Origin: Desulfobacteraceae bacterium CG2_30_51_40
GTDB lineage: Bacteria > Desulfobacterota > DSM-4660 > Desulfatiglandales > Desulfatiglandaceae
Direction: 5' to 3'
Length of the DNA: 40,946 nucleotides
NCBI GenBank assembly: GCA_001874005.1
Contig: MNYJ01000106.1
Span: forward strand, 1 to 40,946
This document shows, in pieces, positions 12,575 through 39,366 of the stretch. Every line of letters starts with the position of its first letter. Position 1 is the stretch's first letter. The position numbers and the translations under genes were made by a program. Below the pieces are notes generated by a model. It was not told the origin of the DNA and ran no database searches. It saw only the letters and a program-made list of their open reading frames with translations.

Positions 12575-12617
12575 ATTGGAGCCGGTGACACCCTAGGGGT
12601 TTGGGGGGAGATTGGGA

Positions 12618-13808: not shown

Positions 13809-13848
13809 TAGTACCGGTTTTGGCCGGCTGAAGGGGAGGCATTTGGAG

Positions 13849-22561: not shown

Positions 22562-22584
22562 GAAGTTCCTCCTGATTCAACAAC

Positions 22585-22640
22585 TACCTTCCCTCCCCCG
22601 TCGAGGGGTAGGAGCAAAGGGAAGGGGCATTTTCATATAA
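22585..22640 (-). repeat. G-rich dispersed repeat, copy 4 (partial, inside the rnf operon)
   Basis: CCTTCCCTCCCCCGTCGAGG, then a GGAGCAAAGGGAAGGGGCAT run and TTTCATATAA. It matches the right half of copy 2 and fills most of the 112-base gap between rnfA and rnfB. Confidence 0.75.
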
Positions 22641-22673
22641 AAACGTTAATGCCATTTATAAACCGGTCGCTGC

Positions 22674-23249: not shown

Positions 23250-23261
23250 TATGTAGTCCCC

Positions 23262-23858
23262 CTACTTCTTCCCGATTACATTCATAACACAGAGCATAAG
23301 GCCTAGGCACATGAAAGCCCCGGGGGCCTCCACCATGAATCGGAACGGCTCGAAACCAGGTCCGAAGACTGCCATCTTGTAAAACGTTCCATTACCCAGG
23401 ATCTCTCTTATTGCCGATAGGGCGCTCAGGGCAAGTGTGTATCCGATTCCCATCCCCAATCCGTCAGCCAGGGAGGCTATCACGCCGTTTTTGGCCGCAA
23501 ATGCCTCGGCCCGGCCCAGCAGGATGCAGTTGACGACTATCAGGGGAATGAAGATGCCCAGTTGCAGAAAGAGCGGATAGACAAACGCCTGCATGGAAAG
23601 CTCCACCACGGTCACGAATGTTGCAATGATAACGATGTAGCAGGCAATTCTGACTTCCTTGGGTATAAGATTTTTAAGGAGTGATATCAAAACGTTAGAG
23701 CAGACAAGCACGAAGGTTACCGCTATTCCCATGCCTAATCCGTTATCCACGCTCTTTGTTATGGCCAGTGTGGGACAGAGTCCCAGCACCAGCCGGAACG
23801 GAGGGACCTCTGCCCATAATCCCTTTGAGAATTCCTGAAACACGCTTTTCTTTGCCAT
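23262..23858 (-). CDS. rnfE: Rnf complex subunit E
   Basis: A 198-residue six-helix membrane protein, paralogous to RnfA with inverted topology. The conserved cysteines are C28 (VLGLCPTLAITKSV) and C111 (IVVNCILLGRAEAFA). Family signatures NGLGMG and ANKGV-like NGVIASLADGLGMG are present. It lies directly between rnfG and rnfA and is surely co-transcribed with them. Confidence 0.95.
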   Translation of the reverse strand: MAKKSVFQEFSKGLWAEVPPFRLVLGLCPTLAITKSVDNGLGMGIAVTFVLVCSNVLISLLKNLIPKEVRIACYIVIIATFVTVVELSMQAFVYPLFLQLGIFIPLIVVNCILLGRAEAFAAKNGVIASLADGLGMGIGYTLALSALSAIREILGNGTFYKMAVFGPGFEPFRFMVEAPGAFMCLGLMLCVMNVIGKK

Positions 23859-23882
23859 GTCTTGCCTCTCCTAAGCCTGGAA

Positions 23883-24473
23883 TCAGGCCTTTTCCTTCAG
23901 TTTTTGGATGATAGCGGGTTTGAGGCGCTGGTAGGCCTCTGAAACACTCAGGATTGCCCCGCACACCCCCCTTGAAGTAACTGTGGCTCCGCTCAGGGCA
24001 TCAACTGCCCCGCCGTCTGCCTTGACCTTGAAAGGGTCGTTTATTGTCTTGCCTTTGAACTGCGCGGTGAAAGCAGGGTCTTGCTTTGCTCTGGCTCCCA
24101 ACCCCGGCGTCTCGCTGTGTGTAGTGACACCGATTCCCATGATCTGGTCATTTTCGATATTGATGGCGACGAGCACCCCGATATCACCCCCGAACCCTTT
24201 TCCGAATCCCTCGAGGGCCACGGTATTCTTCTTTCCGTCGAAAACCCCTACAAAGCAATTTACTTCATTCTTTCCCTCCGCGATCTTAAAGCGGTCAGTG
24301 AGGGGATCGTTTGCGGCGCCCTTAAAAATATCCTTGAGCACGGGTCCCTTGACGAACTTTAACTGCTGGTACTCGATTCTCTCCTGGGTTCCGTTCTTTA
24401 CGGCTGCCAGCAGTCCGCCCGATATAAGACTTATGATGGTAACTGCGGCAAAAAGCTTGAACATCTTACCCAT
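23883..24473 (-). CDS. rnfG: Rnf complex subunit G, covalent FMN carrier
   Basis: A 196-residue protein with one N-terminal membrane helix (about 6-24) and a periplasmic FMN domain. The flavinylation motif is LSGATVTS (about 160-167), where ApbE-type enzymes attach FMN to threonine. THSETPGLGAR is the other family signature. ATG at 24473 is chosen over an earlier TTG because GGAGG lies 10 bases before it, inside the end of rnfD. No apbE gene is in the window. Confidence 0.93.
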   Translation of the reverse strand: MGKMFKLFAAVTIISLISGGLLAAVKNGTQERIEYQQLKFVKGPVLKDIFKGAANDPLTDRFKIAEGKNEVNCFVGVFDGKKNTVALEGFGKGFGGDIGVLVAINIENDQIMGIGVTTHSETPGLGARAKQDPAFTAQFKGKTINDPFKVKADGGAVDALSGATVTSRGVCGAILSVSEAYQRLKPAIIQKLKEKA

Positions 24474-24477
24474 GTCT

Positions 24478-25437
24478 TTAAGCCCTCCTTCCCAGTGCTC
24501 TCGGCCTGATCTTGTCAACCAGCGGATTGATCACATTCATTAACAGAATGGCAAAGACCACTCCCTCCGGAAAGGCCCCTATGTTTCGTATCAAGACAGT
24601 CATGGCCCCGCCTCCTAGTCCGTAAAGGATCATCGGTATGAAGTTCACCGGCGATGAAGAATTCTCGGTTGCAAAGAAAAATGCCCCTATCAGGCTGAAT
24701 CCGGTTACAAGATGGAACACGGGGCTAGCGTACTTTTCCGGCCCTGCAAGGTTGAAAATAAGAGCCGTTAAAAAAATACCTGCCAGAAAAGACAAGGATA
24801 TCTCCCATCTTATGAATCCCCTCACGATAAGGTAACAGCCTCCTATAACCAATCCCAGCCCGAAGACCGCCCCTATGCCTCCCAACTGGTTGCCCATGAG
24901 TAGTCCCCAGATGTCGTATTTGCCGACGACTGCGGGCCCGAAGTGTTTCAGCGCCACAAGGGGATAAAGCGGCGTAAAGGCGACCTCGTAGCTTACAAGT
25001 GCTGCGTCGTAATCAAGCATGACCTTCCAGGAGAGCGTAAGGATGGCAAAGGCAACGAGGACCGGATTCAAAGGGTTGCATCCCAATCCCCCGTAGATCA
25101 TCTTCCCCACCACAATGGCTACAAAGGTTCCGGCAATGACCGCATACCACGGCATTGTAGCGGGAAGGAGCATTCCGAGGAGAAGTCCGATAAGGGCGGC
25201 ATCCCCGTCAGCGATGGTGGGGGGTTTTTTCATGAGCCGGTTTATCAGGAGTTCCCAGACCATCGCGCTCGATACGGCGAGGGCCAGTACCCTCAGGGCC
25301 GGGATTCCAAAAAACAGGATACCTGCGATGGCGGCAGGAAGGGCTGCAATGATTATGTTGTAGTTCCTTGCCGTGATCCTATCTCCATTGTGCCAGAATG
25401 GGGCGTGAGCCCCAGCAAGAAGCTGTTCGTTAAGCAT
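24478..25437 (-). CDS. rnfD: Rnf complex subunit D
   Basis: A 319-residue membrane protein with about nine to ten helices. The family signature YGGLGCNPLNPVL (about 115-127) is clear. At the usual covalent FMN site (S-G-A-T-P-L in most RnfD), this protein reads EVAFTPL with T155, so the threonine is kept but the residues before it differ. The nearby G-S-I-G-E-T-S signature is replaced by LGGIGAVFG. Flavinylation is therefore uncertain. ATG at 25437 is chosen for GGAGGTGCAAA just upstream; it overlaps the rnfC end by 8 bases. Confidence 0.92.
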   Translation of the reverse strand: MLNEQLLAGAHAPFWHNGDRITARNYNIIIAALPAAIAGILFFGIPALRVLALAVSSAMVWELLINRLMKKPPTIADGDAALIGLLLGMLLPATMPWYAVIAGTFVAIVVGKMIYGGLGCNPLNPVLVAFAILTLSWKVMLDYDAALVSYEVAFTPLYPLVALKHFGPAVVGKYDIWGLLMGNQLGGIGAVFGLGLVIGGCYLIVRGFIRWEISLSFLAGIFLTALIFNLAGPEKYASPVFHLVTGFSLIGAFFFATENSSSPVNFIPMILYGLGGGAMTVLIRNIGAFPEGVVFAILLMNVINPLVDKIRPRALGRRA

Positions 25438-26701
25438 TTTGCACCTCCAGAGACCTTGCCCGTTCATACTCGAATTTCCCGAGCATCACGTAATGAAAGA
25501 TGGGTATGGCTGCAGGGCAGACATAGCCGCACAGGCCGCACTCTATGCAGGATAGCATATCAAATGAACGCGCGGCTTCATCATAGAGCTTGTTTTCAAG
25601 AAGGCGGATAAGCATGTTTACCGGGACATGGGCGGGGCAGACCCTGACGCATTCCCCGCAGTTCACGCAGTGCGCCGCTGATATGGGGGGCGCTGCCGCT
25701 GCGTCCTGTATCATAAGGGCGTCTGTGTCGCCGCAAACAGGTGCATCAACGGAAGAAAGCGTTATGCCGGCCAGTGGCCCTCCGGAAATGAGCCTGTCTC
25801 CCTTTGCGATCTTAATCCCAAGCACATCCATAATGTGTCTTGCGGGTGTACCCAGCCTGACCCTGGCGAAGGCTGTCGATCCGTCCTTCTTTATTACCGT
25901 AATGACCTTGTCGAGAGGTATTGACCCGCTTGAAAAGGCCTTTCCTAGATTGCTTACGGCCTCAGCGGACAGAAATCCAGCCCCCATCTCATCGCATCTG
26001 ATTCCCGTGGGGACCTCTATCGCAAGGATTTTTTTCATCACGATTTTCGGAAAAAACTGAGGATAGACCGCGGGCATTTGCTTAATCTCCACTCCCTCAA
26101 TCTCCCCTTCAGGTCTTACTCCCTCTGGGAGAAGGTATATGATACGTTTTTTTTCAAATATTTTCCTGACAATTGCCATGCCTTTCTTCAGTTCTGCAAA
26201 CTCTGTCTTTGCTATCAGGGAGTTTGTTGATACCAGAAGATCCTTGTCCATCCCTGAAACAAATACCGTCTTTAGATTGTCCCTGATGCCTGTCAGGAAA
26301 CTGAAGTCCGGCTGGCCGGGTAAATAACCCAGGAAACGGGTGACCCTTTCAAGCTCAGATGAGCTTTCAGAGTTTCTGAATTCCTCATCAGGCCTGTCCT
26401 TACCATCCACCTTAAAGGAGACGGCCGTAAGGTTCTTCCCCATATATCCAACAGTAGCGGATATCGCCGCCACTGTTCCGGTTACAGGCGAAATGAAATA
26501 ATTGTCTTCCCGGTCCCCGCATCTCTGACCGGTCTTGACCATGTCCCCTACCCCTATGCCCAACGGTCCGTTCAATGGGTGATCCAGAATCAACTGGGCC
26601 CTTTCAGGTAGCGGGATATCCACCGGTTTGGTGGAAGGGGTTGTCAGGATCGGATAGGTCAGTTTGGGGGCGGCCAAGCTGAAAAACGATCTCTTGATCA
26701 T
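25430..26701 (-). CDS. rnfC: RnfC-like subunit lacking the NADH/FMN motif (NqrA-like centre)
   Basis: A 423-residue peripheral subunit, first of the rnf genes proper. The N-terminal barrel-sandwich region, the SLBB-like domain and two C-terminal 4Fe-4S sites (C345-C348-C351-C355 and C385-C388-C391-C395) are typical of RnfC. The usual glycine-rich FMN/NADH motif (G-x-G-G-A-x-F-P-T) and the following E-C-E-P-Y are not present. The corresponding segment reads FLGYLPGQPDFSFL and VFVSGMDKDLL, the latter resembling NqrA (A-M-D-x-x-P-L). It may therefore not oxidise or reduce NAD(H) itself. The start follows GGAGGTATAG. The tetrahaem cytochrome gene lies 53 bases upstream. Confidence 0.88.
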   Translation of the reverse strand: MIKRSFFSLAAPKLTYPILTTPSTKPVDIPLPERAQLILDHPLNGPLGIGVGDMVKTGQRCGDREDNYFISPVTGTVAAISATVGYMGKNLTAVSFKVDGKDRPDEEFRNSESSSELERVTRFLGYLPGQPDFSFLTGIRDNLKTVFVSGMDKDLLVSTNSLIAKTEFAELKKGMAIVRKIFEKKRIIYLLPEGVRPEGEIEGVEIKQMPAVYPQFFPKIVMKKILAIEVPTGIRCDEMGAGFLSAEAVSNLGKAFSSGSIPLDKVITVIKKDGSTAFARVRLGTPARHIMDVLGIKIAKGDRLISGGPLAGITLSSVDAPVCGDTDALMIQDAAAAPPISAAHCVNCGECVRVCPAHVPVNMLIRLLENKLYDEAARSFDMLSCIECGLCGYVCPAAIPIFHYVMLGKFEYERARSLEVQNA

Positions 26702-26754
26702 CTATACCTCCTGCGCCTGGGAGGCCTGTCTTGCCTCCACAGTTAAGTTCGATT

Positions 26755-27129
26755 TTATCTGACGTGGCACTGGGAGCAATCCACGGGCCCCGAGCCGGAA
26801 TCCTTGTGGCATTCAATACACTGTTTATGCAATGCATCGGATCTCTTGGGAGCGTCACCGGGTTCATTCAAATGACACTCGCTGCAGGCCGAAGGCCGCT
26901 CATCATCCTTGTCAATGTCGTGGTGGCAATCCTTACATCCGTATCCATAACCGTCGGATGAGAAATGCTGCTTGTGATCGAAAAGGACCTTGCCGCCGAT
27001 ATTCTGGAACAATATCCTTACAGGTTGCTCCGGTGCCCGCTGTGGAAAAGCTACGTAAGCCCCTATGCCCACAACCAGCAGCACCACGAGTATCGTGTAA
27101 GCCAGTTTTAGTTCGCCTTTCTTCTCCAT
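26755..27129 (-). CDS. Membrane-anchored tetrahaem cytochrome c (c3/DhcA-like), Rnf-associated
   Basis: A 124-residue protein with an uncleaved-looking N-terminal helix (about 8-27) and a periplasmic domain with four CxxCH haem sites at residues 65, 82, 104 and 118 (CKDCH, CSECH, CIECH, CSQCH). Extra histidines (FDHKQHF, CHHD) could be axial ligands, as in class III cytochromes. In Desulfovibrio and in Methanosarcina acetivorans a multihaem cytochrome gene likewise heads the rnf operon. There it links Rnf to periplasmic or quinone-like carriers. It lies between nuoF (13 bases upstream) and rnfC, tying the formate and Rnf modules together. Confidence 0.92.
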   Translation of the reverse strand: MEKKGELKLAYTILVVLLVVGIGAYVAFPQRAPEQPVRILFQNIGGKVLFDHKQHFSSDGYGYGCKDCHHDIDKDDERPSACSECHLNEPGDAPKRSDALHKQCIECHKDSGSGPVDCSQCHVR

Positions 27130-27142
27130 CTTACAATCTCCG

Positions 27143-28930
27143 TTATGAAATAGCGTCGGCCGGGCAGTTTGTTATACAGGTCATACACTTGATACACTTG
27201 TCCTTGAGTATCAAAGCCGGCTCCTTTTTCTTCCATTCGATGGCCTTTGCCGGGCATCCCTTGAAGCAGATGCCGCACTTTATGCATTTTTCCGGATCAA
27301 CCTCAAACTTGAGCAGCTTCACGCAGCGTTTTGCCGGGCATCTCTTCTCGTAGATGTGCGCCTCATATTCGTGTCGGAAATATCTTAAGGTCGAAAGTAC
27401 CGGATTGGGGCCGGTCTGCCCGAGGCCGCAGAGGGCTGAGTTCTTTATCATGTGACTCAGCTCCTCTAAAAGATCAAGATCTGCCGGCTCGCCCAGGCCT
27501 TGAGTTATCTTTTCAAGGATCTGGAGCATGCGCCTCGTGCCCTCGCGGCACGGGGTGCATTTGCCGCAGGATTCATCCTGGATAAAGTCCATGAAAAAAC
27601 GCGCCATATCCACCATGCAGGTCTGGTCGTTCATCACGATCATACCTCCGGATCCCATTATGGCGCCGACCTTCATGATGGATTCGTAATCAACCGGCGT
27701 GTCAAGGTACTGCTCCGGCACGCATCCTCCGGAAGGCCCCCCGAGCTGAACCGCCTTGAATTTTCTCTTCTTGGGAATACCTCCCCCGATATCGAAGATT
27801 ATCTCCCTGAGGCTTATACCCATCGGGACCTCAACAAGGCCGATGTTGCTGACTGCCCCTGTCAGGGCGAAGACCTTGGTTCCCTTGCTGGTCTCGGTTC
27901 CTATGGAGGCGTACCAGGCCCCTCCGTTTTGAATGATCTGAGCGATGTTCGCATAGGTCTCCACGTTGTTGAGAACTGTGGGCTTCTTCCACAGGCCCTG
28001 CTGGGCCGGGAAAGGAGGCCTTGATCTCGGCATGCCTCTCCTTCCCTCCAGGGACTGCATAAGGGCCGTTTCTTCCCCGCAGACAAACGCCCCCGCCCCC
28101 TTATAGACCTCTATGTCAAAGTCATGGCCGCTTCCCAGGATATCCTTTCCGAGCAGGCCGTAGTTCCTTGCCTGTCTGATGGCTATACCCAGCCTCTTTA
28201 TGGCAAGAGGGTATTCGGCCCTGCAGTAGATGTATCCCTGATGCGCGCCTATGGCCTTGCCTGCGATAATCATGCCTTCCAGCACGGCATGAGGATCGGC
28301 TTCAAGAACGCTCCTGTCCATGAAGGCCCCCGGATCTCCTTCATCCGCGTTACAGAGGGCGTACTTGACGTCTCCCTTTGATCTGCTCGCAAATTCCCAC
28401 TTGAGACCGGTAGGGAATCCTGCTCCCCCGCGGCCTCTGAGACCTGATGTCTTCACCTCCGCTATAATCTGCTCAGGGGTCATCTCAAGGAGCGCCTTTC
28501 CTAATCCGATATAGCCGTCCCTGGCGATATACTCATCAATATTTTCGGGGTCAACCGCCCCTCTGTTCCTGAGGACGATGAGCTTCTGCTTGGAATAAAA
28601 CGGGATGTCGTCCATGCTGGGGATGGTTGCGGCAGAGGCGGGTTCTTTGTAAAAGAGCTTTTTGACGGGTCTGCCCTTGAGGAAATGCTCCTCAACGAGG
28701 TTTGGAATATCCTCAACCTTCAGCTTCTGGTAAAAAATATTGTCCGGCTGAACGATCATTATGGGGCCCTGGGCACAAAAACCGTTGCACCCCGTTTCTA
28801 TGATCCTGATCTCTGTATCAAGCTTTTGGCGGGCAAGTTCCCGCATCAGGGCTTCCTTGATCTGGATGCTGCCCGATGCGCGACAGCCGGTGCCTCCGCA
28901 GAGAAGCAGATCGGTTCTGAATGTGGTCAT
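27143..28930 (-). CDS. nuoF: NuoF/HndC-type diaphorase subunit of NAD/ferredoxin-linked formate dehydrogenase
   Basis: A 595-residue protein. An N-terminal thioredoxin-like 2Fe-2S domain has C11, C16, C48 and C52. The FMN/NADH core has GLRGRGGAGFPTGLKWE (163-179), CNADEGDPG and YKGAGAFVCGEETAL (276-290). The N3-type 4Fe-4S site is C455-C458-C461-C501. The C-terminus adds two ferredoxin clusters (C549-C559 and C579-C589 sets). This layout is that of HndC/HydB/HylB in electron-bifurcating hydrogenases and formate dehydrogenases, where this subunit holds the bifurcating flavin. No hydrogenase large subunit is in the operon, so its partner is the FdhA at 36502. It follows the small 2Fe-2S gene by 106 bases. 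Confidence 0.94.
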   Translation of the reverse strand: MTTFRTDLLLCGGTGCRASGSIQIKEALMRELARQKLDTEIRIIETGCNGFCAQGPIMIVQPDNIFYQKLKVEDIPNLVEEHFLKGRPVKKLFYKEPASAATIPSMDDIPFYSKQKLIVLRNRGAVDPENIDEYIARDGYIGLGKALLEMTPEQIIAEVKTSGLRGRGGAGFPTGLKWEFASRSKGDVKYALCNADEGDPGAFMDRSVLEADPHAVLEGMIIAGKAIGAHQGYIYCRAEYPLAIKRLGIAIRQARNYGLLGKDILGSGHDFDIEVYKGAGAFVCGEETALMQSLEGRRGMPRSRPPFPAQQGLWKKPTVLNNVETYANIAQIIQNGGAWYASIGTETSKGTKVFALTGAVSNIGLVEVPMGISLREIIFDIGGGIPKKRKFKAVQLGGPSGGCVPEQYLDTPVDYESIMKVGAIMGSGGMIVMNDQTCMVDMARFFMDFIQDESCGKCTPCREGTRRMLQILEKITQGLGEPADLDLLEELSHMIKNSALCGLGQTGPNPVLSTLRYFRHEYEAHIYEKRCPAKRCVKLLKFEVDPEKCIKCGICFKGCPAKAIEWKKKEPALILKDKCIKCMTCITNCPADAIS

Positions 28931-29036: not shown

Positions 29037-29408
29037 CTACTTAACTCTTGCGAGGGCAAAGTCGGTCTGCACTTCTCCGAGAAGGACGTGGCGCTTAAAG
29101 ACCTGCCTCATCCTGTTTCTGTCCATGTGCTGGTAGATTACCGGTTCATTCCCGCTTATCTCCACGGTGACATTGGGCTCGCTGCTGCACATACCCATGC
29201 ACCCGGAGGTGATCACCCTGATATCGGAGCGCTTGGCCTCGGTGACCTCCTGCAGAAGAGCGTCCATAACCTCTCTGGCGCCTGCCGCTATTCCGCATGT
29301 GCCCATGTGAACCGTTACTTTCACGCTGGTTTCCCCTTCACGCAGGGCGGTTGACTTCTTGGCGCTGTCTCTGAGCTTTTTCAAATCTTCGATAGTTAGT
29401 TTTGCCAT
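29037..29408 (-). CDS. Thioredoxin-like 2Fe-2S protein (HndB-like)
   Basis: A 123-residue protein similar to HndB: an N-terminal helix, then HMGTCGIAAGAREVMDALL and SGCMGMCSSEPNVTVE. The cysteines visible are C38, C70 and C74; a fourth ligand of the classical C-x4-C pair is not obvious, so cluster binding may be altered. In Hnd and similar complexes this small subunit sits between the NuoE and NuoF genes. Start codon ATG is at 29408, one base after the stop of the ATPase gene. Confidence 0.85.
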   Translation of the reverse strand: MAKLTIEDLKKLRDSAKKSTALREGETSVKVTVHMGTCGIAAGAREVMDALLQEVTEAKRSDIRVITSGCMGMCSSEPNVTVEISGNEPVIYQHMDRNRMRQVFKRHVLLGEVQTDFALARVK

Positions 29409-29409
29409 A

Positions 29410-29967
29410 TCATTCCTCTTTTATTGCTGTCTTTATCTCGGCAAGGCCTTCCGACATAAATTGCCTTAAAAAACCAATTACTTCCGGATGGGTGATGTCG
29501 CCTCCATCCAGTTGCTTTTTGACCTCTCTGGTGTCCAGCCTGAACCGTTTTCCATCCCTATCATGATCATAGATAAAATCAACGCCCGGGTTGCCCATTA
29601 TGAGACTTATCATTGAACCGGTCATGTCTCCCAGGGGGGCAAGGTCAATATGATCTCTCCTGAAAATTATCTTTACCTCAGTCCCGCACCCCTCCTTCGA
29701 TTCCAGCTGAAAATCGCCGTCGCACCTCTTTGCGGCCTCCTTCATGAGGGACAGGCCCAGTCCGACTCTCCTGGTCGTCCTGGTGGTGTAAAAAGGATCA
29801 AGCACTTTCTGAATCATCTCTTTCGGGATACCCCTCCCGTTGTCTCTTACGCTTATCCTCAACAGGTTGTCTCTAAAGGATTCTTCCACCAGTATCTCTA
29901 GAAGGTCGGCTCCGGCGTTTATACCGTTTTCTGCAATATCAAGTATGTGTAATGCAAGCTCCCTCAC
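29410..29967 (-). CDS. ATP-binding protein, histidine-kinase-like ATPase
   Basis: A 185-residue protein that begins with the N-box (LHILDIAENGINAGA), then DNGRGIPKEM and RRVGLGLSLMKEAAK, i.e. a complete GHKL ATPase domain (about 1-110). A further 70-residue domain follows that I do not recognise. It lacks a His phosphoacceptor domain. Members of this family occur in bifurcating hydrogenase and formate dehydrogenase operons next to PHP and DRTGG genes. Function unproven; it may be a protein kinase acting on a regulator or a chaperone-like ATPase. GTG start with GAGGGAAA before it. Confidence 0.85.
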   Translation of the reverse strand: MRELALHILDIAENGINAGADLLEILVEESFRDNLLRISVRDNGRGIPKEMIQKVLDPFYTTRTTRRVGLGLSLMKEAAKRCDGDFQLESKEGCGTEVKIIFRRDHIDLAPLGDMTGSMISLIMGNPGVDFIYDHDRDGKRFRLDTREVKKQLDGGDITHPEVIGFLRQFMSEGLAEIKTAIKEE

Positions 29968-29998
29968 TTTCCCTCAACCCACATCCCTTCAACCCTCA

Positions 29999-30748
29999 TT
30001 ATCCCTCCAAGGCAGTTTGCGAAACCCTTCTTCCTTCCCTGCCTCCCAGCGCGAGCCTGAGTTCCTCCACGGCAGGCGCCTCCATAAAAAAGGTGGTGTG
30101 CGCAGATCCTATATCCTCGGGAAAATGGGCATCTGAAAAGGACACAATCGTGAATTTCTCGATGCCTGGTATCTCGGCTAAGGCCTTCCGGACCGAGGTG
30201 TGTCGCGAGATCTCGACTGCATCCAGATGGACTTCTTCAGGGAAAAATCCAAGCTGACTCATTATGCTGTAACTCGGACGATCCACATGGGATGCTATGC
30301 TGATTCCCCCAAGGCTGTGGACAGCCTCCACTATTTCATCCAGACCGAGCTGCACGGCTCCGATAAGAAGTCTGTCGTTAAATCCCTCCACCTCATCAAA
30401 CTCGTTGGCAACCACCTGGTCGCCGAAAACCTCAGGCCTGTTGGTGCCGTTCATGTGAGCGTAGATGATATCCTGCAAACGAAGGATCTGCTCCTCGGTA
30501 TCAAAGAAAGCCAGGCTGTGGACCTCTTCTCTTGATGAGATCTCCATGCCCGCAAGTACCGCAAGCCCTTTCTGCCTGCCGGCCCGCATCACCGCTCCGA
30601 CATTTTCAGCGCTGTTATGGTCACACACCGAGATAAGGTCAAGCCCTTTTTCGAGCCCCTTTTCCACAATCGCCCTGGGGCTCATATCCAGTTCCCCGCA
30701 GGGAGAAAGGCATGAGTGAATGTGAAGATCAGCCTTGAAGGCCCTCAA
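29999..30748 (-). CDS. PHP domain metallo-phosphoesterase
   Basis: A 249-residue protein with the full set of PHP metal motifs: DLHIHSCLSPCG near the N-terminus, VCDHNSAENV, GMEISSREEVHSLAFF, ASHVDRPSY and SFSDAHFPED. PHP proteins hydrolyse phosphoesters with three bound metals. The substrate here is unknown; the setting suggests a phosphatase in the operon's regulatory island. It starts with TTG that overlaps the DRTGG stop (TTGA), so translation is coupled. Confidence 0.87.
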   Translation of the reverse strand: MRAFKADLHIHSCLSPCGELDMSPRAIVEKGLEKGLDLISVCDHNSAENVGAVMRAGRQKGLAVLAGMEISSREEVHSLAFFDTEEQILRLQDIIYAHMNGTNRPEVFGDQVVANEFDEVEGFNDRLLIGAVQLGLDEIVEAVHSLGGISIASHVDRPSYSIMSQLGFFPEEVHLDAVEISRHTSVRKALAEIPGIEKFTIVSFSDAHFPEDIGSAHTTFFMEAPAVEELRLALGGREGRRVSQTALEG

Positions 30749-31092
30749 TTTCCTTCACCACCCACCCCCAGGCCATGGAGGATACCGGCGACCTCATAAG
30801 CCGATCTGGCCGAAACCAATAAGGGTATACCCTCCGCTTCGGCCTTCTTGATTGTTTCCTCCTCCGGAATGCGCCCGTTTACAAGGATTATTGCCGCCAG
30901 GTCCTTCAAGACGGCAACCGCCACTATGTTCTGGTGCGACTGCACGGTAAGCCAGAGATAACCTTTTCGGGCATTGGCCATGACATCACTCAACAGATCT
31001 CCGCAGTATCCTCCGAGGACCTCGCGATCCATTCCCATCGGCGATGGTTCAATTTTAAGATCAAGGTGATGAACTATTTCTGACAGCTTCAA
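30745..31092 (-). CDS. DRTGG domain protein (second of two)
   Basis: A 115-residue single-domain protein: SEIVHHLDLKIEPSPMG, GGYCGDLLSDVMANARKGYLW and IILVNGRIPEEETIKKAE are typical of DRTGG proteins. DRTGG domains are found beside CBS domains and phosphotransacetylases and are thought to bind small ligands. It is paralogous to the protein encoded at 32817. TTG start preceded by GGAGGCAGAT. Confidence 0.82.
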   Translation of the reverse strand: MKLSEIVHHLDLKIEPSPMGMDREVLGGYCGDLLSDVMANARKGYLWLTVQSHQNIVAVAVLKDLAAIILVNGRIPEEETIKKAEAEGIPLLVSARSAYEVAGILHGLGVGGEGN

Positions 31093-31109
31093 ATCTGCCT
31101 CCTAAACCA

Positions 31110-32387
31110 CTATCTTATTCTCATTCTGATACACTCTTCAAGCATGGCTCTCCCGTCGGCAACATCTTCCGCAAAACTCCTGCAGCCGGGGGAACCGCAG
31201 AATCCGCACTCCTTACCGGGAAGGCCCTCCATGATCTTTGCTATCTTTTCCTGCCGTTCGATTTCGTGGATGATGCCGGATCTCTTACCTGCCTCCTCCG
31301 GCTGTTGGGGTCTCTTTTCGCTGAAAAACCATCCCTTCCTGTATGCCCTTTCCGCCTGGGCGTATCTGATCCTCTTATCGTGGCTGAACATCCTGGAGAT
31401 ATTCATGACGGTACGCTTTGCCTCATATCTGTCCGCCACCGTAAGCGGCCCTCCGATACAGCCCTCAAGGCATGCCCTGAACTCAAAATATTCAATATCT
31501 CTAAAAAGCCCCATCTCGATTTTTTCAAGATATCTGATGGTCTCAGGAAGGCCTGATACGGCCATATAGTTACCCTCCCCCATCGCGGCTATCTCTCCGC
31601 CGGAGATTCCCCACCCTATCGCAAGGCTGTTGGAGGGGCTTACCGGAGAAGTCTCATCGGGACCCGGAAGATTTCTCTTTACGGATTCAAAGACATCATT
31701 GATACCTATGGCTCCGTCGAGATAGGAGGTCTTGAGAAACATGGGGTTGTTTATGGAGATCATCTTGGCTGAGCATGGAGTTATATGGTAAACGCCGTAA
31801 TCGGTTTTCTTCAACAGATCATCTTTTTCAATGCGGCGCTTCAGTTCTCTGGCGGCAAGTTCTCTTGGCGTGAGAATGGGGCTCAGATTCTTAAGAAGGG
31901 CGGGAAACCTGTAAGCGATAAGCCTGTTGACCACAGGGCAGACCGGGGAGATAAGCGGTCTTGAGGAGTCTTCCTTACCAGATGTCTCCTTGATAAATAT
32001 TTCAAGGGCCACGTTGTATAGGTCAAGAAAATAGGTCTGGTCAAAGACATACTCAAACGTCTTTTGAAGGGCCGCCTGGATATCCTCGGGCAGTACGTCC
32101 TGACCGAACTGAGAGTATAGTACCGGGGACGCGCTTATAACCATATTGGCGGCAGGCGCCTTATAGTCGTCTCTGGTGGTCGTGGCCTTGACCGCTCCGT
32201 GCGGGCACACCCTTATGCATTCACCGCAATCCACACAGGTGCCCACTATCTTTGCGACCTTGAGGCCTCTTACCCTTATGGCCTTTGTGGGACATGCCTT
32301 CATGCAAAGAACGCAACCCACACAGCGTTTTTCGTCTATATGCACATAGTGAAGAGATGTCTTATCAGTCACTTTGCCACCGATCAC
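31110..32387 (-). CDS. HydA-like (group C/D type) iron-sulfur protein, putative redox or H2 sensor
   Basis: A 425-residue protein. Two N-terminal 4Fe-4S sites (C22-C25-C28-C32 and C51-C54-C57-C61) lead into a domain like the C-terminal part of iron-only hydrogenase. The H-cluster motifs survive in altered form: SPVCPVVN (C150) for T-S-C-C-P, TPCSAKM (C205) for M-P-C-x-x-K, and RACLEGCIGGP (C306, C310). All four cluster cysteines remain, but the proton-relay cysteine is valine and the G-G-G is lost. The C-terminus adds an Fe-S domain (C394, C397, C402, C419; ECGFCGSPGC). Such proteins are thought to sense rather than catalyse. GTG start overlaps the upstream ATPase gene (GTGA). Confidence 0.85.
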   Translation of the reverse strand: MIGGKVTDKTSLHYVHIDEKRCVGCVLCMKACPTKAIRVRGLKVAKIVGTCVDCGECIRVCPHGAVKATTTRDDYKAPAANMVISASPVLYSQFGQDVLPEDIQAALQKTFEYVFDQTYFLDLYNVALEIFIKETSGKEDSSRPLISPVCPVVNRLIAYRFPALLKNLSPILTPRELAARELKRRIEKDDLLKKTDYGVYHITPCSAKMISINNPMFLKTSYLDGAIGINDVFESVKRNLPGPDETSPVSPSNSLAIGWGISGGEIAAMGEGNYMAVSGLPETIRYLEKIEMGLFRDIEYFEFRACLEGCIGGPLTVADRYEAKRTVMNISRMFSHDKRIRYAQAERAYRKGWFFSEKRPQQPEEAGKRSGIIHEIERQEKIAKIMEGLPGKECGFCGSPGCRSFAEDVADGRAMLEECIRMRIR

Positions 32388-32803
32388 GCTACAAAACCTA
32401 TCCTTACCTCTGTCCCTTTACCCTTTGCGGAAATCACATCCAGGCTGTCACTGTTTTTCTTGATATTAGGGAGCCCCATTCCAGCGCCGAAGCCCATCTG
32501 CCTTGCTTCTTCAGAGGCGGTGCTGAATCCCTCCTTCATGGCAAGAGAGACGTCCTCTATGCCGGGGCCGCTATCCTTGATAGTTATATTTACATAATCC
32601 TCGCCTATCTCAATGGTCATTACGCCGTCTCCCCCATGCATGACGACGTTCATTTCAGCCTCATAGGCGCAGATGGATACCCTCCTTATTAATTCAGTTG
32701 CGAAACCTATCTTCTTCAGGAGCCCGTGGACTCCCATTGAGATCTCTCCCGCCTTCAGGTAGTCCCTGGCTTTGATGGGATAGCTTTTGGTCAAAATGGC
32801 CAT
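32384..32803 (-). CDS. Anti-sigma-factor-type ATPase (RsbW-like)
   Basis: A 139-residue single-domain GHKL ATPase: N-box CAYEAEMNVVMHGG, then DSGPGIEDV and MGFGAGMGLPNIKKN, ending with GKGTEVRIGFV. It is similar in size and motifs to anti-sigma factor serine kinases. It lies between a DRTGG gene and the HydA-like sensor gene and overlaps the latter. A role in passing a redox signal to a partner is plausible but not shown. Confidence 0.86.
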   Translation of the reverse strand: MAILTKSYPIKARDYLKAGEISMGVHGLLKKIGFATELIRRVSICAYEAEMNVVMHGGDGVMTIEIGEDYVNITIKDSGPGIEDVSLAMKEGFSTASEEARQMGFGAGMGLPNIKKNSDSLDVISAKGKGTEVRIGFVA

Positions 32804-32816
32804 AAGAGTCCTTGCT

Positions 32817-33176
32817 CTACTCCGGGCGTTTCTTTTCCACTCCTCTCAAGCCTGCGCTGAAGAGTCTCCCGCATGCTGTAAACATGGTAAAAGGGGTTGT
32901 CAGAAGCGGCAACCCGTTTTCCCTGGCCTGGTCCTTCATATCATCGTCGGGGATCTTGTCCCTGACCAGAATAAGCGCTGAAGCTCCCGCGATTACCGCC
33001 GTGCGCACCGACTGGATGTTATTGAGCCCGGAGAGGAGAAGCACTCCCTCCTTTGGGCCTCTGAGGATATCGCTCATCAGATCTCCTCCGGCCCCGGCCA
33101 TGATCTCCATGTCAAGCCTATCCTCTCCAGTGGCTACTTGAGCCTTTAATATCCTTTTTACCTCTGAAAGCCTCAT
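32817..33176 (-). CDS. DRTGG domain protein (first of two)
   Basis: A 119-residue protein: SEVKRILKAQVATGEDRLDM, GGDLMSDILRGPKEGVLLL, ALILVRDKIPDDDMKDQA. It is the paralogue of the protein at 30745; the two share the GGDLMSD/GGYCGDLLSD element and the same domain length. It probably binds a small ligand. Start ATG; it lies 35 bases after nuoE. Confidence 0.83.
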   Translation of the reverse strand: MRLSEVKRILKAQVATGEDRLDMEIMAGAGGDLMSDILRGPKEGVLLLSGLNNIQSVRTAVIAGASALILVRDKIPDDDMKDQARENGLPLLTTPFTMFTACGRLFSAGLRGVEKKRPE

Positions 33177-33211: not shown

Positions 33212-33712
33212 TTATTTGTAACGGTTCAGGATATCAACGATTCTTTCGGGCGTTACCCCGCCGTGGGTATCTGAGTCCACCATCACTACCGGGGCAAGGC
33301 CGCACGCCCCCAGGCACCTCACGGACTCAAGGGAAAAACGTCGGTCAGGCATTGTGTTGCCTATCTCTACGTTGAACTCGGATCTGATCCTGTTTACTAT
33401 CTCGTTCATGCCCCTTACGTAGCAGGCGGTGCCCATGCATACCCTGACCGTGTGTCTTCCCTTGGGGATCATGGAAAAAAACGAATAGAAGGTCACCACC
33501 CCATAGACAGTGCTCGCAGGCATGTTGAGGCCCCTTGCTATATATTCCTGGAGTTCAACTGGTAGATACGCCGTTACTCCCTGGCACTCTTCAAGCACAG
33601 GGATAAGACTTCCCGGGGTTCCCCTGTGCCTTGCTATTATCTCGTCCACCCGAGCCATCACTTCCGGGGTTAGGTCCTTGTTTATACTGTATAGATCTTC
33701 TGCGAAGGACAT
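33212..33712 (-). CDS. nuoE: NuoE/HndA-type 2Fe-2S subunit
   Basis: A 166-residue thioredoxin-fold protein of the NADH dehydrogenase 24-kDa family. The 2Fe-2S ligands are C92, C97, C133 and C137 (VCMGTACYVRG and CLGACGLAP). The N-terminal helical part (LIPVLEECQGVTAYLP) is also typical. It begins 3 bases after the fdhA stop with GGAGG upstream. With NuoF at 27143 and FdhA it should form a three-part NAD/ferredoxin formate dehydrogenase. Confidence 0.94.
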   Translation of the reverse strand: MSFAEDLYSINKDLTPEVMARVDEIIARHRGTPGSLIPVLEECQGVTAYLPVELQEYIARGLNMPASTVYGVVTFYSFFSMIPKGRHTVRVCMGTACYVRGMNEIVNRIRSEFNVEIGNTMPDRRFSLESVRCLGACGLAPVVMVDSDTHGGVTPERIVDILNRYK

Positions 33713-33715
33713 CCG

Positions 33716-36502
33716 TCAAATTCCTCCCTGGATCTTTTCAATTTTAACCGCGCAGACCTTGTACTCAGGTATCTTTGAGACAGGATCAATTGCGGGGTTT
33801 GTAAGTGCGTTGGCAGGCCCTCCGGCATAATGGAAAGGGACAAAAACGGTTCCACTCTTTGCCTTGAGAGATATCCTGGTCTTAGCGGTGATAGCGCCTC
33901 TTCTGGTTGAGAGCTTTACCGCTTCCCCGTCCTGAAGGCCGAGGCTTGAGGCATCCTCATTGGAAATCTCCACAAAGGACTCCGGCGCGAGCCGATTGAG
34001 CCCCTCGCTCTTCATGGTCATGGTGCCTGTGTGGTACTGGTATAAAACACGGCCTGTGGTCAGATAGAGGGGGAACTGCTCATCAGGAACCTCGGCCGGG
34101 GGAATCCACTCGATGCCGTGGAATACCCCGAGACCGCAGGTAAAACTATCCATGTGGAGACATGGCGTTCCGGGATGATCCGTCCCGGTGCAGGGCCAGA
34201 AAATACCGTCCTGCTCCAGCCTGTTATAATTAATTCCGCAGTAAGATGGGGTGACTCGGGTAATTTCTGCCATAATCTCCTGCGCATCCTTATAATTCAT
34301 GGGATATCCCATGCGCGTAGAAAGATCGGCTATTATAGCCCAGTCCTCCTTTGCCTCTCCGGGCGGCGTAAGGGCCTTTCTCACCCTCTGGATCTTTCTC
34401 TCCGTGTTGGTGAAGGTTCCGTCCTTTTCGGCAAATGAGGCAGAGGGAAGCACTACATCGGCCAACCTTGCGGTTTCCGTGAGAAATATATCCTGCACTA
34501 CCAGGAAATCCAGATGACCAAGGCCTTCCTTGACGTGTCTCTGATCGGGATCGGAAAGGATGGGATTTTCACCTATGATATAAATCGCCTTAAGGGTTCC
34601 CTCGTGGGCTCCATCCATCATCTCCATGACTGTAAGTCCCGTGCTGTCCGGCAGGTTTGAGACTCCCCAAGCCATTGCCATTCTTTTTCTCACCGCCGGA
34701 TCGGATGTCTTCTGATATCCGGTGTAAACATTCGGGAGCCCGCCCATATCGCAGGCCCCCTGAACATTATTCTGGCCCCTTAAGGGGTTGACTCCTCCGC
34801 CTTCGATGCCGACATTTCCGCAGAGCATCGCAAGGTTGGCAAGGCTTTTAACGTTGTCGGTCCCGCAGGTGTGCTGGGTTATTCCCATACAATATATAAT
34901 GGAGCCCGCCTTGGCGCCGGCATAAAGCCTTGCCGCTGCCTTCAGCTCTTCTGCCGGGATACCCGTAATCTTTTCAACGAATTCGGGGGTGTATTTTTCA
35001 ACCACCTTCTTGACATCATCAAGGCCCACCGTGCGGGAGTTTACATAGGCCTCATCATAGAGACCCTCTTTGAGGATAACGTTCATCATGCCGTTTATCC
35101 ACGCGACATCCGTTCCAAGGGTCGGCCTCAGCCACTTGGCCGCAAAATCGGCGAGCTTGATCCTGCGGGGATCAACCAGTATGAGCTTAGCCCCTTTTTG
35201 GGTCACGGCCCGTTTTATGTAGGAAGAAAGTACTGGATGATTCTCCGTTGTATTGGAGCCGGTTACCAGTATCACCTGCGCCTTTTCAATGTCGCCAATG
35301 GGGTTTGTCATTGCGCCGCTTCCGAATGCTGCAGCCAGACCGGCTACAGTGGAGGAGTGTCAAAGCCTTGCGCAGTGATCCACATTGTTGGTTCCTATGA
35401 CGGCCCTCGCGAATTTCTGAGCCACGTAATTTTCTTCGTTAGTTATTCTGGCGCTCACAAGGAAGGCTATGGAATCAGGGCCGGTGTCCTTTTTGATCTT
35501 GCCTAGTCTGGTCTGGATAAGATTGAGTGCCTCATCCCAGGATGCCTCCCTGAAGGCGCCGTTTTCCTTGATAAGGGGTTTGGTGAGCCGTTCCGGGCTG
35601 TTAATGAAGCTGTATCCGAATCTTCCCTTTACACACAGGCTCCCGTAATTGGGGCCTATGCCTTCAACCCCCGTAACCTTTACGATTTTTTCCTTTCTCA
35701 CGTGCAGATACATCTGGCAACCCACTCCGCAATAAGAGCAGGTGGTCTTGACAAGGCGGGTCTCACCCTTGGACGGGTCATTTTCCAGTATGTCCTGAAC
35801 AGGAACAAGCGCCCCAACGGGACAGGCCTGGACGCATTCTCCGCAAAAAACGCAGTCCGAATCCTTTAGCGCCCTGTCGCCGCTTGCGACGATCTTGGAT
35901 CTCGTGCCTCTGTAGCCGTAACTTATCGCGTTATTGACCTGCACTTCATTACAGGCCTGGACGCAGCGGCCGCACAGGATGCAGCGGGTAAGGTCCCTCA
36001 CTATGAACGGATTGACGTCTTCTATCTTATGCCTGGGTTCGGTTGGCTCAAATCTCACCCCCCTTACCTGGTACTTTATCGCCAGCTCCTGAAGGCGGCA
36101 GTCCCCGTAAACAGGGCAAATATCTTTATGCCCGTCGGCCTTTAGGCTTCTGAGTTGAAAATCCGTCCAGGAATCCATATCCAGATCCTGCACCAGACAG
36201 TTATGATGACCTGAAGAGAGCAAAAGCTCGAGGTTGAGTCTCCTGGATTTCATCACATCGGGGGTATTGGTTTTGACGACCATCTTGGGCGCCGCAGGTG
36301 TTACGCAGGCCGCAAGCAGTGTCCTGGCCCCCCTTACCTCTACCACGCACATGCGGCAGGCCCCGGTGGGAGAGGCATTTTTCATGAAACAGAGAGTGGG
36401 GATGTCTATTCCGTTTCTCTGCGCCACATTCAGTACAGTCTCTCCAGCCTGGAATGGATATTCCTTGCCGTCAATGAAAAGAGTCTCTTTTGATTCCATC
36501 AT
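33716..36502 (-). CDS. fdhA: Formate dehydrogenase catalytic subunit with N-terminal ferredoxin domains, selenocysteine-containing
   Basis: A 928-residue selenoprotein. The N-terminus is NuoG-like: a 2Fe-2S domain (C38, C49, C52, C66), a His-Cys 4Fe-4S region (HHNC at about 99-102, C129, C135) and two ferredoxin sites (C174-C184 and C217-C227 sets). The Mo/W-bis-MGD domain follows with its 4Fe-4S ligands C255, C258, C262 and C290. UGA at 35362-35360 encodes residue 381 (DHCARL-U-HSSTVAGLA), and a SECIS hairpin follows. ATG at 36502 or the adjacent ATG at 36499 are both possible after GAGGAAAG. It leads the long operon with nuoE and nuoF, so it should exchange electrons with NAD and ferredoxin. 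Annotated as separate ORFs it would wrongly appear broken. Confidence 0.95.
35329..35362 (-). promoter_or_regulatory. Selenocysteine UGA and bacterial SECIS hairpin
   Basis: On the minus strand, UGA (35362-35360) is followed after 10 bases by an 8-bp stem, CTGTAGCC (35349-35342) with GGCTGCAG (35336-35329), around the loop GGTCT. Loop and spacing match the element in the other fdhA (15108-15140), and GGUCU is also the loop of E. coli fdhF. The stem sequence differs but pairs equally well, which argues for selection on structure. Confidence 0.93.
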
Positions 36503-37221: not shown

Positions 37222-37395
37222 TTAGAACTTGAACACGAAATCCGCCTGAAGCCTGTCTTCATGGCCTCTGGATTTCTCATTGCTCCAGTTAGGGGATTTC
37301 GGGTCCCAGTCAGTTACAGGGTCGGTATAGAAGAAGGATGTGGCAAAGGTAAGCCTGTCGAAAGGCAGATAACTTAAAGTGAGTTTATGTCCTTT
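37222..37395 (-). pseudogene. C-terminal remnant of an outer-membrane porin
   Basis: On the minus strand a frame ending at TAA (37224-37222) reads KGHKLTLSYLPFDRLTFATS, then FFYTDPVTDWDPKSPNWSNE and finally DRLQADFVFKF. Alternating polar/hydrophobic strands and a last phenylalanine are hallmarks of outer-membrane beta-barrel C-termini. There is no start and the frame closes at 37419, so only about the last 55 residues survive. The remnant overlaps the last codons of the receiver gene at 37374 in another frame, which suggests a deletion fused the two. Confidence 0.65.
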
Positions 37396-37856
37396 CCTGT
37401 TGGCTCCTTTTCCTGATCAAATACCCTGCCGGGAAAGCGCATGAGCTGCTTGATCCTTGCGCTCCTTATCTTCTGCTCATTGGTGTCTTTTTTTTCGAAC
37501 GCCTGCCCGAGCTTGGAAAGGAGATCCTCCAGCTTTACCGGCTTTAGCAGGTAATCAAAGGCCCCGAGCTTCATTCCCTCTATGCTCGTTTCTACCGAGG
37601 CGTGGCCCGTAAGAAGAAGCACCTCCGCCAGAGGCTGAATCTTCTTGATCTCCCTGAGGGTTTGAATCCCGTCCATACCTCCGGGCATCTTCACATCCAG
37701 TATGACCACGTCGAAGATCTGTTTTTTCATCTCTTCAACAGCCGCCTCACCGCTCAAGACCCCTACGGTATCCACGTTTCTCTTGTTGAGACGGTTGACC
37801 AGTGTCTCGAGGAAATCCTTCTCATCATCAACGACGAGCACCCTGAAAAGATCCAT
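37374..37856 (-). CDS. Response regulator, NtrC-type receiver only
   Basis: A 160-residue protein with one receiver domain (1-120): D10, D11, phosphoacceptor D54 (VVILDVKMPGGMDG), threonine in LLTGHAS and K in LLKPVKLEDLL. It has a charged C-terminal tail (EKKDTNEQKIRSARIKQLM) and no DNA-binding domain. GGGGGGAAAGATA precedes the ATG. Its last codons (GKDINSL) overlap the porin remnant, so the natural C-terminus may have been changed. Confidence 0.9.
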   Translation of the reverse strand: MDLFRVLVVDDEKDFLETLVNRLNKRNVDTVGVLSGEAAVEEMKKQIFDVVILDVKMPGGMDGIQTLREIKKIQPLAEVLLLTGHASVETSIEGMKLGAFDYLLKPVKLEDLLSKLGQAFEKKDTNEQKIRSARIKQLMRFPGRVFDQEKEPTGKDINSL

Positions 37857-37925
37857 TATCTTTCCCCCCTTTCTTAAGACAATAAGAGTTATTAAGGTTA
37901 CTTCGTATCAGCTCAAAAATTCGGG

Positions 37926-37951
37926 GTAGGTGCGGCTTCAGCCGCACCTAC
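37926..37951. repeat. Perfect 12-bp palindrome GTAGGTGCGGCT/AGCCGCACCTAC
   Basis: The arms are 37926-37937 and 37940-37951. It forms a very stable hairpin with a TTCA loop. A degenerate relative (TGTAGGTGCGCCTTCAGGTGCA) lies near 18447-18468. It looks like a dispersed palindromic repeat rather than a terminator, since no T-run follows. Confidence 0.65.
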
Positions 37952-38007
37952 AGAACCTGATTCCTGGCCTGAGGACATCCATCGCCTCCAGTTATTGACA
38001 TGATAAA

Positions 38008-38223
38008 TTACTTCTTCTTCGGTATAACGGCCGGTACTTTTACCGTGAAAATACACCCCCCACCCCGACCCTCCCCCGCGCGGGGGGAGGGAAATCCTCG
38101 ACCTCGCAAAGTGTAAAGCCTCAGGAGGATTTTCATTAGCGGGGGCGACAAAATATTGCTATCATGAGCGTTTACCATGAAAGTTGTTCCTTTTCCAACT
38201 TCAGACTCAAAGGAGATACTTCC
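38008..38223 (-). pseudogene. Histidine kinase C-terminal remnant, interrupted by an insertion
   Basis: The minus-strand frame from 38223 to the TAA at 38008 begins GSISFESEVGKGTTF, the last glycine box of a kinase ATPase domain, and ends FTVKVPAVIPKKK, a typical kinase C-terminus. Between them lie 132 extra bases (38051-38182 or equivalent). Removing them restores GKGTTFTVKVPAVIPKKK in frame. Upstream of 38223 the frame is closed by TGA and the rest of the kinase is missing, so the gene is dead in any case. Confidence 0.7.
38051..38170. mobile_element. 120-bp insertion containing G-rich repeat, copy 6, flanked by 12-bp direct repeats
   Basis: It is bounded by TTTACCGTGAAA (38039-38050) and TTTACCATGAAA (38171-38182), which match at 11 of 12 positions. 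The inside carries the repeat core (ACACCCCCCACCCC, CCTCCCCCGCGCGGGGGGAGG) and a second arm GAGGATTTTCATTAGCGGGG. The direct repeats look like a target-site duplication, so at least this copy arrived by insertion. Confidence 0.6.
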
Positions 38224-38254
38224 TCAATTAGCTGCGGGATCTTGTGCTTTTAGA

Positions 38255-38400
38255 TAGCGTCCATCCGTAAATGGATGTTTTCACCAATTTCGGCGTTGGA
38301 CTCAAATTTTAATCCTCGAAATACCTCAATGTATTCCTGTGGTTAAAATTATCTCCTGCCTTGAACTCGACGAAACTATGTCATTTACGGATGGACACTA
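38255..38400. mobile_element. MITE-like element, copy B (146 bp)
   Basis: The ends are TAGCGTCCATCCGTAAATG and the complement of TAGTGTCCATCCGTAAATG. It is about 90% identical to copy A. It overlaps the 3' end of the receiver gene at 38381 and supplies its last codons and stop. Confidence 0.8.
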
Positions 38401-38758
38401 GGTAGTTCATAATAACCCTCTTTAATTTTTCTATGCTATTTCCTCTCTTTTCCACAAAACCTACAATATTAACGGGATAGGTATATGCATGTTCCTCCGA
38501 TGCGAAGGAGTGTATCATAACCGGCAGAGGAGGCAGCCGGTCCTCGAGCTTGCGCAGGAGGACCGCGGCCTCTTCATCGGGCAGATCCGGATCCACAATT
38601 GCCATATCTATGTTTTCCTGTGCGAAAACGATATCCAGGAGTTCCTTGGCGTTTCTGGCAAGCTTTACTGAATAGCCCTCGGATGTCATTTCACGCCTGA
38701 GAAAATCCCTTACGTGCGGGTTTCGGTCGGCGACAACTATGGTAGCTCTTGCTTGCAT
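38381..38758 (-). CDS. Receiver-domain protein with its 3' end changed by a MITE
   Basis: A 125-residue receiver-like protein: D11 (VVADRN), presumed phosphoacceptor D56 (MAIVDPDLPDEEA) and K in FVEKRG. The second acidic residue of the usual D-D pair is Arg12, so metal binding may be weaker. The final residues after NYL (VSIRK and stop) are encoded by the MITE end. Without the MITE the next bases would read CTC TAA, giving a natural ending ...IMNYL. No strong ribosome binding site is visible; it lies 41 bases downstream of the UspA gene at 38800 and is probably in its operon. Confidence 0.82.
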   Translation of the reverse strand: MQARATIVVADRNPHVRDFLRREMTSEGYSVKLARNAKELLDIVFAQENIDMAIVDPDLPDEEAAVLLRKLEDRLPPLPVMIHSFASEEHAYTYPVNIVGFVEKRGNSIEKLKRVIMNYLVSIRK

Positions 38759-38799
38759 GGTCTAATGGAACCGGATCTCTGAATTCCTTTCGGAAGACT

Positions 38800-39276: not shown

Positions 39277-39366
39277 TTTCTATTCCTCCTTATTTTAAGT
39301 TACCGTTAAAATACAATATGTTGGTCATGTGCTTCTCCGAGCCATCCGCTCCCGGCAAAACCTCCA

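Follow-up and report, generated by a model that had tools for sequence, protein, structure and literature searches.

TamHydS of Thermoanaerobacter mathranii is a putative sensory [FeFe]-hydrogenase of group D (M2e) (PMC8163306, PMC6984386), and its gene precedes HydABC, next to that of a histidine-kinase-like ATPase (PMC8163306). What the group D HydS proteins sense and how the signal is passed on is an open question (PMC8163306). TmHydS of Thermotoga maritima, a sensory hydrogenase of group C (M2f), has been proposed to regulate the hydrogenase of its own operon (PMC10055695). For the bifurcating hydrogenase of Caldanaerobacter, HydD co-purifies with HydABC as (HydABCD)2, and hydC-tte0891-hydD-hydB-hydA, expressed in Escherichia coli together with foreign maturases, gave the active enzyme (PMC4694547). 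TmHydABC has likewise been overproduced in E. coli, followed by artificial maturation (PMC7064455). HylA, a HydA relative without an H-cluster, is part of HylABC-FdhF2, a bifurcating formate dehydrogenase of Clostridium acidurici (PMC6085437, PMC5861303). Here we describe a HydS-like protein encoded together with two DRTGG proteins, two GHKL ATPases and a PHP-domain phosphoesterase in a formate dehydrogenase operon of Desulfobacteraceae bacterium CG2_30_51_40. The stretch analysed (the window) comprises 40,946 nucleotides of contig MNYJ01000106.1, from a 3.44-megabase draft genome that is 97% complete. We consider the chances about even that this block is a control module of NuoEF/HydBC-type bifurcating enzymes, in which HydS would act as a maturase-independent [4Fe-4S] redox sensor.

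The HydS-like protein and the H-cluster maturases

Judged from its sequence, the HydA-like protein of the block is of group D (M2e) HydS architecture, the defining features of which were taken from PMC8163306. It has two N-terminal 4Fe-4S motifs (C22/25/28/32 and C51/54/57/61) and a C-terminal Cx2Cx4Cx16C motif (C394, C397, C402, C419). The proton-relay cysteine C299 is replaced by V149 and M353 by a hydroxyl residue, T203, and no PAS domain was found in the protein by a Pfam scan. The ligands of the H-cluster cubane (C150, C205, C306 and C310) are present, and the predicted structure matches [FeFe]-hydrogenases with Z scores of 28-32 over about 350 residues. Two traits usual for group D HydS were not found here, namely the maturases HydE, HydF and HydG in the genome and a group A hydrogenase in the operon.

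In the window's own genome there was no match to HydG and none to HydE or HydF over the cut-off, and the HydS-like protein was the sole Fe_hyd_lg_C protein. The organism appears to be without all three maturases, a feature of the sensor's lineage that had been missed by an earlier interpretation of the window made from its letters (the sequence-only reading). Of 85 genomes in the window's order, 30 carried HydS; the single genome with HydG was without HydS. In all 30 HydS genomes HydS was the only Fe_hyd_lg_C protein; elsewhere in the order such proteins were found only in two congeneric genomes, G184 and G231, whose hydrogenases are ordinary [FeFe] enzymes, with five Fe_hyd_lg_C proteins per genome and no HydS. 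HydS and real hydrogenases did not co-occur in the order. No statistical exclusion of HydG by HydS was seen there (Fisher p = 1) because HydG is almost absent from the order anyway; what the absence of HydG beside HydS shows is a lack of this maturase. In the phylum sample, HydE, HydF and HydG were all missing over the cut-off in 24 of the 32 HydS genomes, two of them single-contig, and HydS-type proteins were the only family members in 23 of these 24. HydG matches of about 180-235 bits were counted as paralogues, since they occur beside true HydG in other genomes, and genome G201 was scored maturase-positive on account of its HydE. With no HydE, HydF or HydG apparent, HydS should sense redox state and not H2. 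What appears to be new is that HydS of this lineage keeps the cubane ligands and the full set of partners while the H-cluster machinery seems to be missing.

The residues of the diiron pocket were compared between maturase-free and HydG-positive sequences. The four cubane cysteines were invariant in every tabulated sequence, with or without maturases, and the positions facing the diiron half differed. At the M497 position Arg was found in 22 of 37 maturase-free and 2 of 31 HydG-positive sequences, a small residue (Ala or Ser) stood at position 299 in 9 of 37 and 26 of 31, respectively, and K358 was kept in 23 of 37 and 28 of 31. Much of this contrast reflects shared descent and is therefore descriptive, not a test; too few of the independent tree pairs were informative for pocket changes, and the Fisher values are likewise descriptive only. 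In the tree the window fell in a 25-row group without HydG, apart from a 45-row group holding the HydG-positive sequences, the branch that splits the two halves being weak (support 69). Maturase-free sequences also stood outside the 25-row group, namely L045 and L053/L054 (in the tree) and the truncated L060 (left out of it), also with Arg at M497 and K358; the maturase-positive sister of L045, L123, already carries Arg at M497. At L053 and L054 the HydS homologues stand alone, with no DRTGG protein, SpoIIAB-like kinase, PHP protein or NuoF nearby.

These data bear on the alternative that HydS is a true H2 sensor with a diiron site supplied by an undetected pathway. The retention of all four H-cluster cysteines, and of K358 in the fraction given, would agree with it. 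We nevertheless regard a true H2 sensor as highly improbable, given that the three maturases are missing in most HydS genomes of the phylum, that HydG is missing in 30 of 30 HydS genomes of the order, and that the pocket often has Arg at M497.

The conserved block and its catalytic partners

The sample of homologues of the HydA-like protein comprised those of the 32 phylum genomes and those of 80 named contigs from various bacteria, Clostridia for the most part; the contig-wide search used a 7-row HydS alignment. The block recurs in conserved order, DRTGG-SpoIIAB-like-HydS-DRTGG-PHP-(NuoE)-GHKL2-2Fe2S-NuoF, in about 110 loci, far above chance. Neighbours were counted only at loci with a long enough flank. 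Upstream of HydS, the SpoIIAB-like gene was found in 98 of 105 loci and a DRTGG gene in 90 of 105; downstream, a DRTGG gene was found in 70 of 81, PHP in 68 of 81, GHKL2 in 67 of 81, the 2Fe-2S gene in 58 of 81 and NuoF in 56 of 77. Many Clostridia have the same genes in the same order, with HydS placed before the bifurcating [FeFe]-hydrogenase HydABC, and the catalytic subunit that comes after the block is usually HydA, a group A hydrogenase. The block is not specific to formate dehydrogenase, a point missed by the sequence-only reading: in HydABC operons it regularly accompanies HydS.

FdhA is the partner in the window and in its relatives, at L037, L041, L047-L050, L065, L145-L148, L150, L151, L153 and L159. 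NuoF is fused to a GltD-like flavin adenine dinucleotide (FAD) domain at L035 and L040, and a Fer2-GltD-like fusion follows the block at L069. In the single-contig genome of L040 the block is preceded by two FAD/NAD (Pyr_redox) oxidoreductases and an FlpD subunit (3770-7178, 11868-15002); this setting, with its NuoF-GltD fusion, is possibly a third type of bifurcating partner for the module. As the catalytic partner varies between HydA, FdhA and a GltD-like fusion, the constant partner in the loci seen is the NuoE/NuoF (HydC/HydB) core. The survey across genomes, which the sequence-only reading had proposed as a check, shows that the module follows the NADH/bifurcating NuoEF core and not the chemistry of H2 or formate. 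The operon setting of HydS in Clostridia is known in part, from TamHydS. The full block and its formate dehydrogenase version were not found in the literature; searches on DRTGG proteins with hydrogenases, on formate dehydrogenase operons containing HydS modules and on HydA-like proteins without HydEFG returned no description of the full block.

The enzyme encoded in the window is predicted to be a bifurcating, NAD/ferredoxin-linked selenocysteine formate dehydrogenase of the NuoEF type: FdhA, NuoE and a NuoF that binds flavin mononucleotide (FMN) are encoded in one operon. In this setting HydS could also serve the formate dehydrogenase as a subunit for electron transfer, for which HylA provides a precedent (PMC6085437, PMC5861303). 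A HylA-like role is weakened because the FdhA of the window already carries a NuoG/HydA-like 2Fe-2S/4Fe-4S arm; moreover, HylA has no L1-L3 motifs, whereas in HydS their cysteines are invariant, and the same HydS also stands beside true HydA. An electron-transfer role is very unlikely in our estimate.

The usual partner of the module being an Fe-S-rich NuoEF core, with module genes interleaved with subunit genes, a function in assembly was considered as well, in which the module would use ATP to insert or repair Fe-S clusters or flavin. However, E. coli has yielded both HydABCD and TmHydABC in the absence of the five upstream genes, those for the DRTGG, SpoIIAB-like, HydS and PHP proteins (PMC4694547, PMC7064455). 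Since these upstream genes were not needed, control is favoured over assembly. This evidence is qualified by tte0891, the gene at the GHKL2 position, which was in the HydABCD construct (PMC4694547). Known Fe-S assembly families are absent from the module, and an assembly function seems to us quite unlikely.

Partner proteins and the proposed mechanism

GHKL1 resembles the serine-kinase-type ATPases of the SpoIIAB family. Its catalytic E48 and N52 were invariant among 103 aligned sequences, in which the DxGPGI and GAGMGLPN boxes were invariant or nearly so. It aligns to SpoIIAB structures (1tid/1th8) with E values of 2-3e-4, and its best NCBIfam match is SpoIIAB, at 53.9 bits, short of the curated cut-off of 135. 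GHKL2 matched only HATPase_c-type domains, and no HisKA (dimerisation/phospho-acceptor) domain was found in it; its C-terminal tail of about 80 residues is conserved. In the operon it has the position of Caldanaerobacter tte0891, and the 2Fe-2S protein that of HydD.

The two DRTGG proteins had been recognised as paralogues from the letters, and they have 33 identical positions in alignment, with Asp32 and Ser35 invariant across both (187 sequences). The DRTGG1 score lies over the PF07085 cut-off of 25.2 bits and that of DRTGG2 just under it. In searches against the PDB single sequences gave nothing meaningful and profiles gave matches, those of DRTGG2 being to the HPr kinase N-terminal domain/DRTGG. 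In the DRTGG1 model, with a predicted local distance difference test score of 93.6, a short helix begins at Ser35. The closest structure is AF1212 (2ioj; Z 16.7 over 113 residues), which has no D-x-x-S in the profile alignment; Z was 14.4 with the CBS-DRTGG regulatory region of a pyrophosphatase (3l2b) and 10.2 with the HPr kinase N-domain (1ko7). The nine residues of metal-ligand type in the PHP protein (H9, H11, D43, H44, E69, H77, H154, D206 and H208) were conserved at 0.99-1.00 among 92 sequences. Among solved structures, those most closely related to this protein are of a putative metal-dependent phosphoesterase and of an exoribonuclease. A module of sensor, kinase and phosphoesterase type, as the sequence-only reading had it, is borne out by the families and by the invariant catalytic residues. 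Its suggestion of dephosphorylation by the PHP protein fared less well, since no known protein phosphatase is as close to this protein as are the PHP enzymes of nucleotide/RNA type. On the whole its observations were confirmed and its interpretation is partly supported.

The same comparisons raise the alternative of a small-molecule switch, in which DRTGG binds a nucleotide or metabolite, PHP makes or destroys this ligand, and a ligand- and redox-gated switch is formed by the ATPases and HydS without protein phosphorylation. The closest relatives of the DRTGG1 model fit this, the CBS-DRTGG region having been crystallised as a ligand complex, as do the nucleotide or RNA phosphoesterases related to PHP. 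Left unexplained, however, would be a SpoIIAB-type kinase with an invariant catalytic Glu beside DRTGG and the invariant D-x-x-S specific to the DRTGG proteins, and we judge a small-molecule switch to be unlikely.

For the control module we infer redox sensing, phosphorylation, a target and a direction of control as follows. HydS retains the [4Fe-4S] ligands of the H-cluster and very probably never receives the diiron half, and its chain of Fe-S clusters would sense the redox state (ferredoxin or NADH). The kinase is likely to be the SpoIIAB-type ATPase, with DRTGG1 and DRTGG2 as its likely substrates or switch partners, in place of STAS proteins. PHP would be the phosphoesterase that resets the switch, and GHKL2, which adjoins HydD/NuoF, is the likely contact with the enzyme. 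Phosphorylation of DRTGG by the kinase, reversed by PHP, is a plausible hypothesis. The wider proposal is that a lineage which had lost, or had never possessed, the synthesis of the H-cluster converted a hydrogenase fold to a [4Fe-4S] redox sensor, and that this sensor, with a SpoIIAB-type kinase, two phosphorylatable DRTGG proteins in place of STAS antagonists and a PHP phosphatase, forms a general partner-switch for NuoEF enzymes; it is a tentative one and rather doubtful as it stands.

Several points weigh against the control module and its mechanism. A STAS domain, the cognate antagonist of such kinases, was absent among the operon proteins scanned. The invariant Ser of DRTGG may be structural or ligand-binding, and the relatives of PHP act mostly on nucleotides or RNA. 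A single clade contributes most of the pocket differences, which are therefore not independent. For 19 loci with a real HydA beside HydS, 6 genomes gave no HydG over the cut-off, and most genomes are drafts, any single one of which could mislead; that such a miss rate explains the absences in 24 of 32 and 30 of 30 genomes is unlikely. A literature search found no experiment on these proteins in any formate dehydrogenase operon. Gene content, order, conservation, fold and the failure to detect maturases are observations that stand apart from the mechanism.

If the partner-switch is real, it would tune hydrogenases, formate dehydrogenases and other NuoEF bifurcating enzymes. A lineage with HydS and the whole block and no diiron machinery separates H2 sensing from redox sensing, and the question becomes directly testable with small soluble proteins.

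Operon layout and comparison with known systems

Table 1. Genes of the formate dehydrogenase operon in the window
Feature	Coordinates	Strand	Basis
fdhA (selenocysteine formate dehydrogenase alpha, fused NuoG-like 2Fe-2S/4Fe-4S N-terminus)	33716..36502	-	TIGR01591 885 bits
nuoE/hydC-like thioredoxin-fold [2Fe-2S] subunit	33212..33712	-	PF01257 165.7 bits
DRTGG1, stand-alone DRTGG protein, invariant D32 and S35	32817..33176	-	PF07085 27.0 bits
GHKL1, SpoIIAB/RsbW/RsbT-like serine-kinase-type ATPase	32384..32803	-	PF13581 (HATPase_c_2)
HydS-like (group D/M2e-type) Fe-S sensor, HydA-like	31110..32387	-	Fe_hyd_lg_C, 2x4Fe-4S and C-terminal FeS domain
DRTGG2, DRTGG1 paralogue, invariant D32 and S35	30745..31092	-	PF07085 23.5 bits, below cut-off
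PHP-domain metal-dependent phosphoesterase	29999..30748	-	PF02811 and PF13263
GHKL2, histidine-kinase-type ATPase without HisKA	29410..29967	-	PF02518 (HATPase_c) 68.5 bits
HydD-like [2Fe-2S] thioredoxin-fold protein, probable subunit	29037..29408	-	PF01257 weak; conserved Cys pattern
nuoF/hydB-like FMN/NADH subunit, N-terminal 2Fe-2S, C-terminal 2x4Fe-4S	27143..28930	-	PF01512, PF10589, Fer4

Read 5' to 3' on the minus strand, the order is fdhA, nuoE, DRTGG1, GHKL1, hydS-like, DRTGG2, PHP, GHKL2, the 2Fe-2S gene and nuoF (Table 1). The six genes between nuoE and nuoF, with the 2Fe-2S gene next, are all real open reading frames of the families the sequence-only reading had assigned. It had also described many overlapping starts; the GTGA (32384-32387) and TTGA (30745-30748) overlaps exist, and they are the only two. 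The remaining gaps in the block are 1-35 base pairs (bp), with 106 bp ahead of nuoF. Its statement that the block encodes no DNA-binding protein agrees with a domain scan of the block proteins, which detected no DNA-binding domain.

The fdhA gene has an in-frame UGA at 35362-35360 (minus strand), at which open reading frame callers break it into two. The Fer2_4 and Molybdopterin domains were matched when TGA was translated as U, and a SECIS_3 match lies at the UGA (35307-35365, minus strand; E 1e-8), its 48.2 bits being under the Rfam gathering score of 63. Directly downstream of nuoF are genes for a class III cytochrome c and rnf genes (20510-27129, minus strand), among them one for an RnfB-like protein fused to a GltD-like FAD/NAD domain. 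This arrangement suggests that reduced ferredoxin derived from formate is passed to Rnf. Upstream of fdhA (37374-40650, minus strand) two receiver-only response regulators, a universal stress protein and a GAF-HisKA histidine kinase are encoded, possibly a separate transcriptional or signalling input.

Among the described systems, TamHydS shares with the window protein the two N-terminal 4Fe-4S motifs, the hydrogenase domain and the C-terminal Cx2Cx4Cx16C, as well as the lack of C299, a hydroxyl residue at M353 and the lack of PAS. The window HydS differs in standing in an FdhA-NuoEF operon, in its altered diiron pocket, and in belonging to a lineage that lacks HydEFG as well as any further [FeFe]-hydrogenase. 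A PAS domain and a real H-cluster are present in TmHydS, whereas the window protein has no PAS and no maturases were detected in its genome. With Caldanaerobacter HydABCD the window shares the order NuoE-(GHKL2 position)-HydD-NuoF, but the catalytic subunit is HydA there and FdhA here. HylABC-FdhF2 likewise combines a formate dehydrogenase, a NuoF-type flavin subunit and a hydrogenase-like protein; HylA, however, is without L1-L3 while the window protein is of HydS type with intact cubane ligands, and the window FdhA bears its own Fe-S arm. GHKL1 has the GHKL fold and the catalytic Glu and Asn of the SpoIIAB/RsbW/RsbT partner-switching kinases, although the window operon has DRTGG proteins and no STAS protein. 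Finally, the DRTGG proteins share their fold with the DRTGG/CBS regulatory domains and the HPr kinase N-terminal domain, but here they form a stand-alone paralogous pair with a D-x-x-S that is missing in 2ioj.

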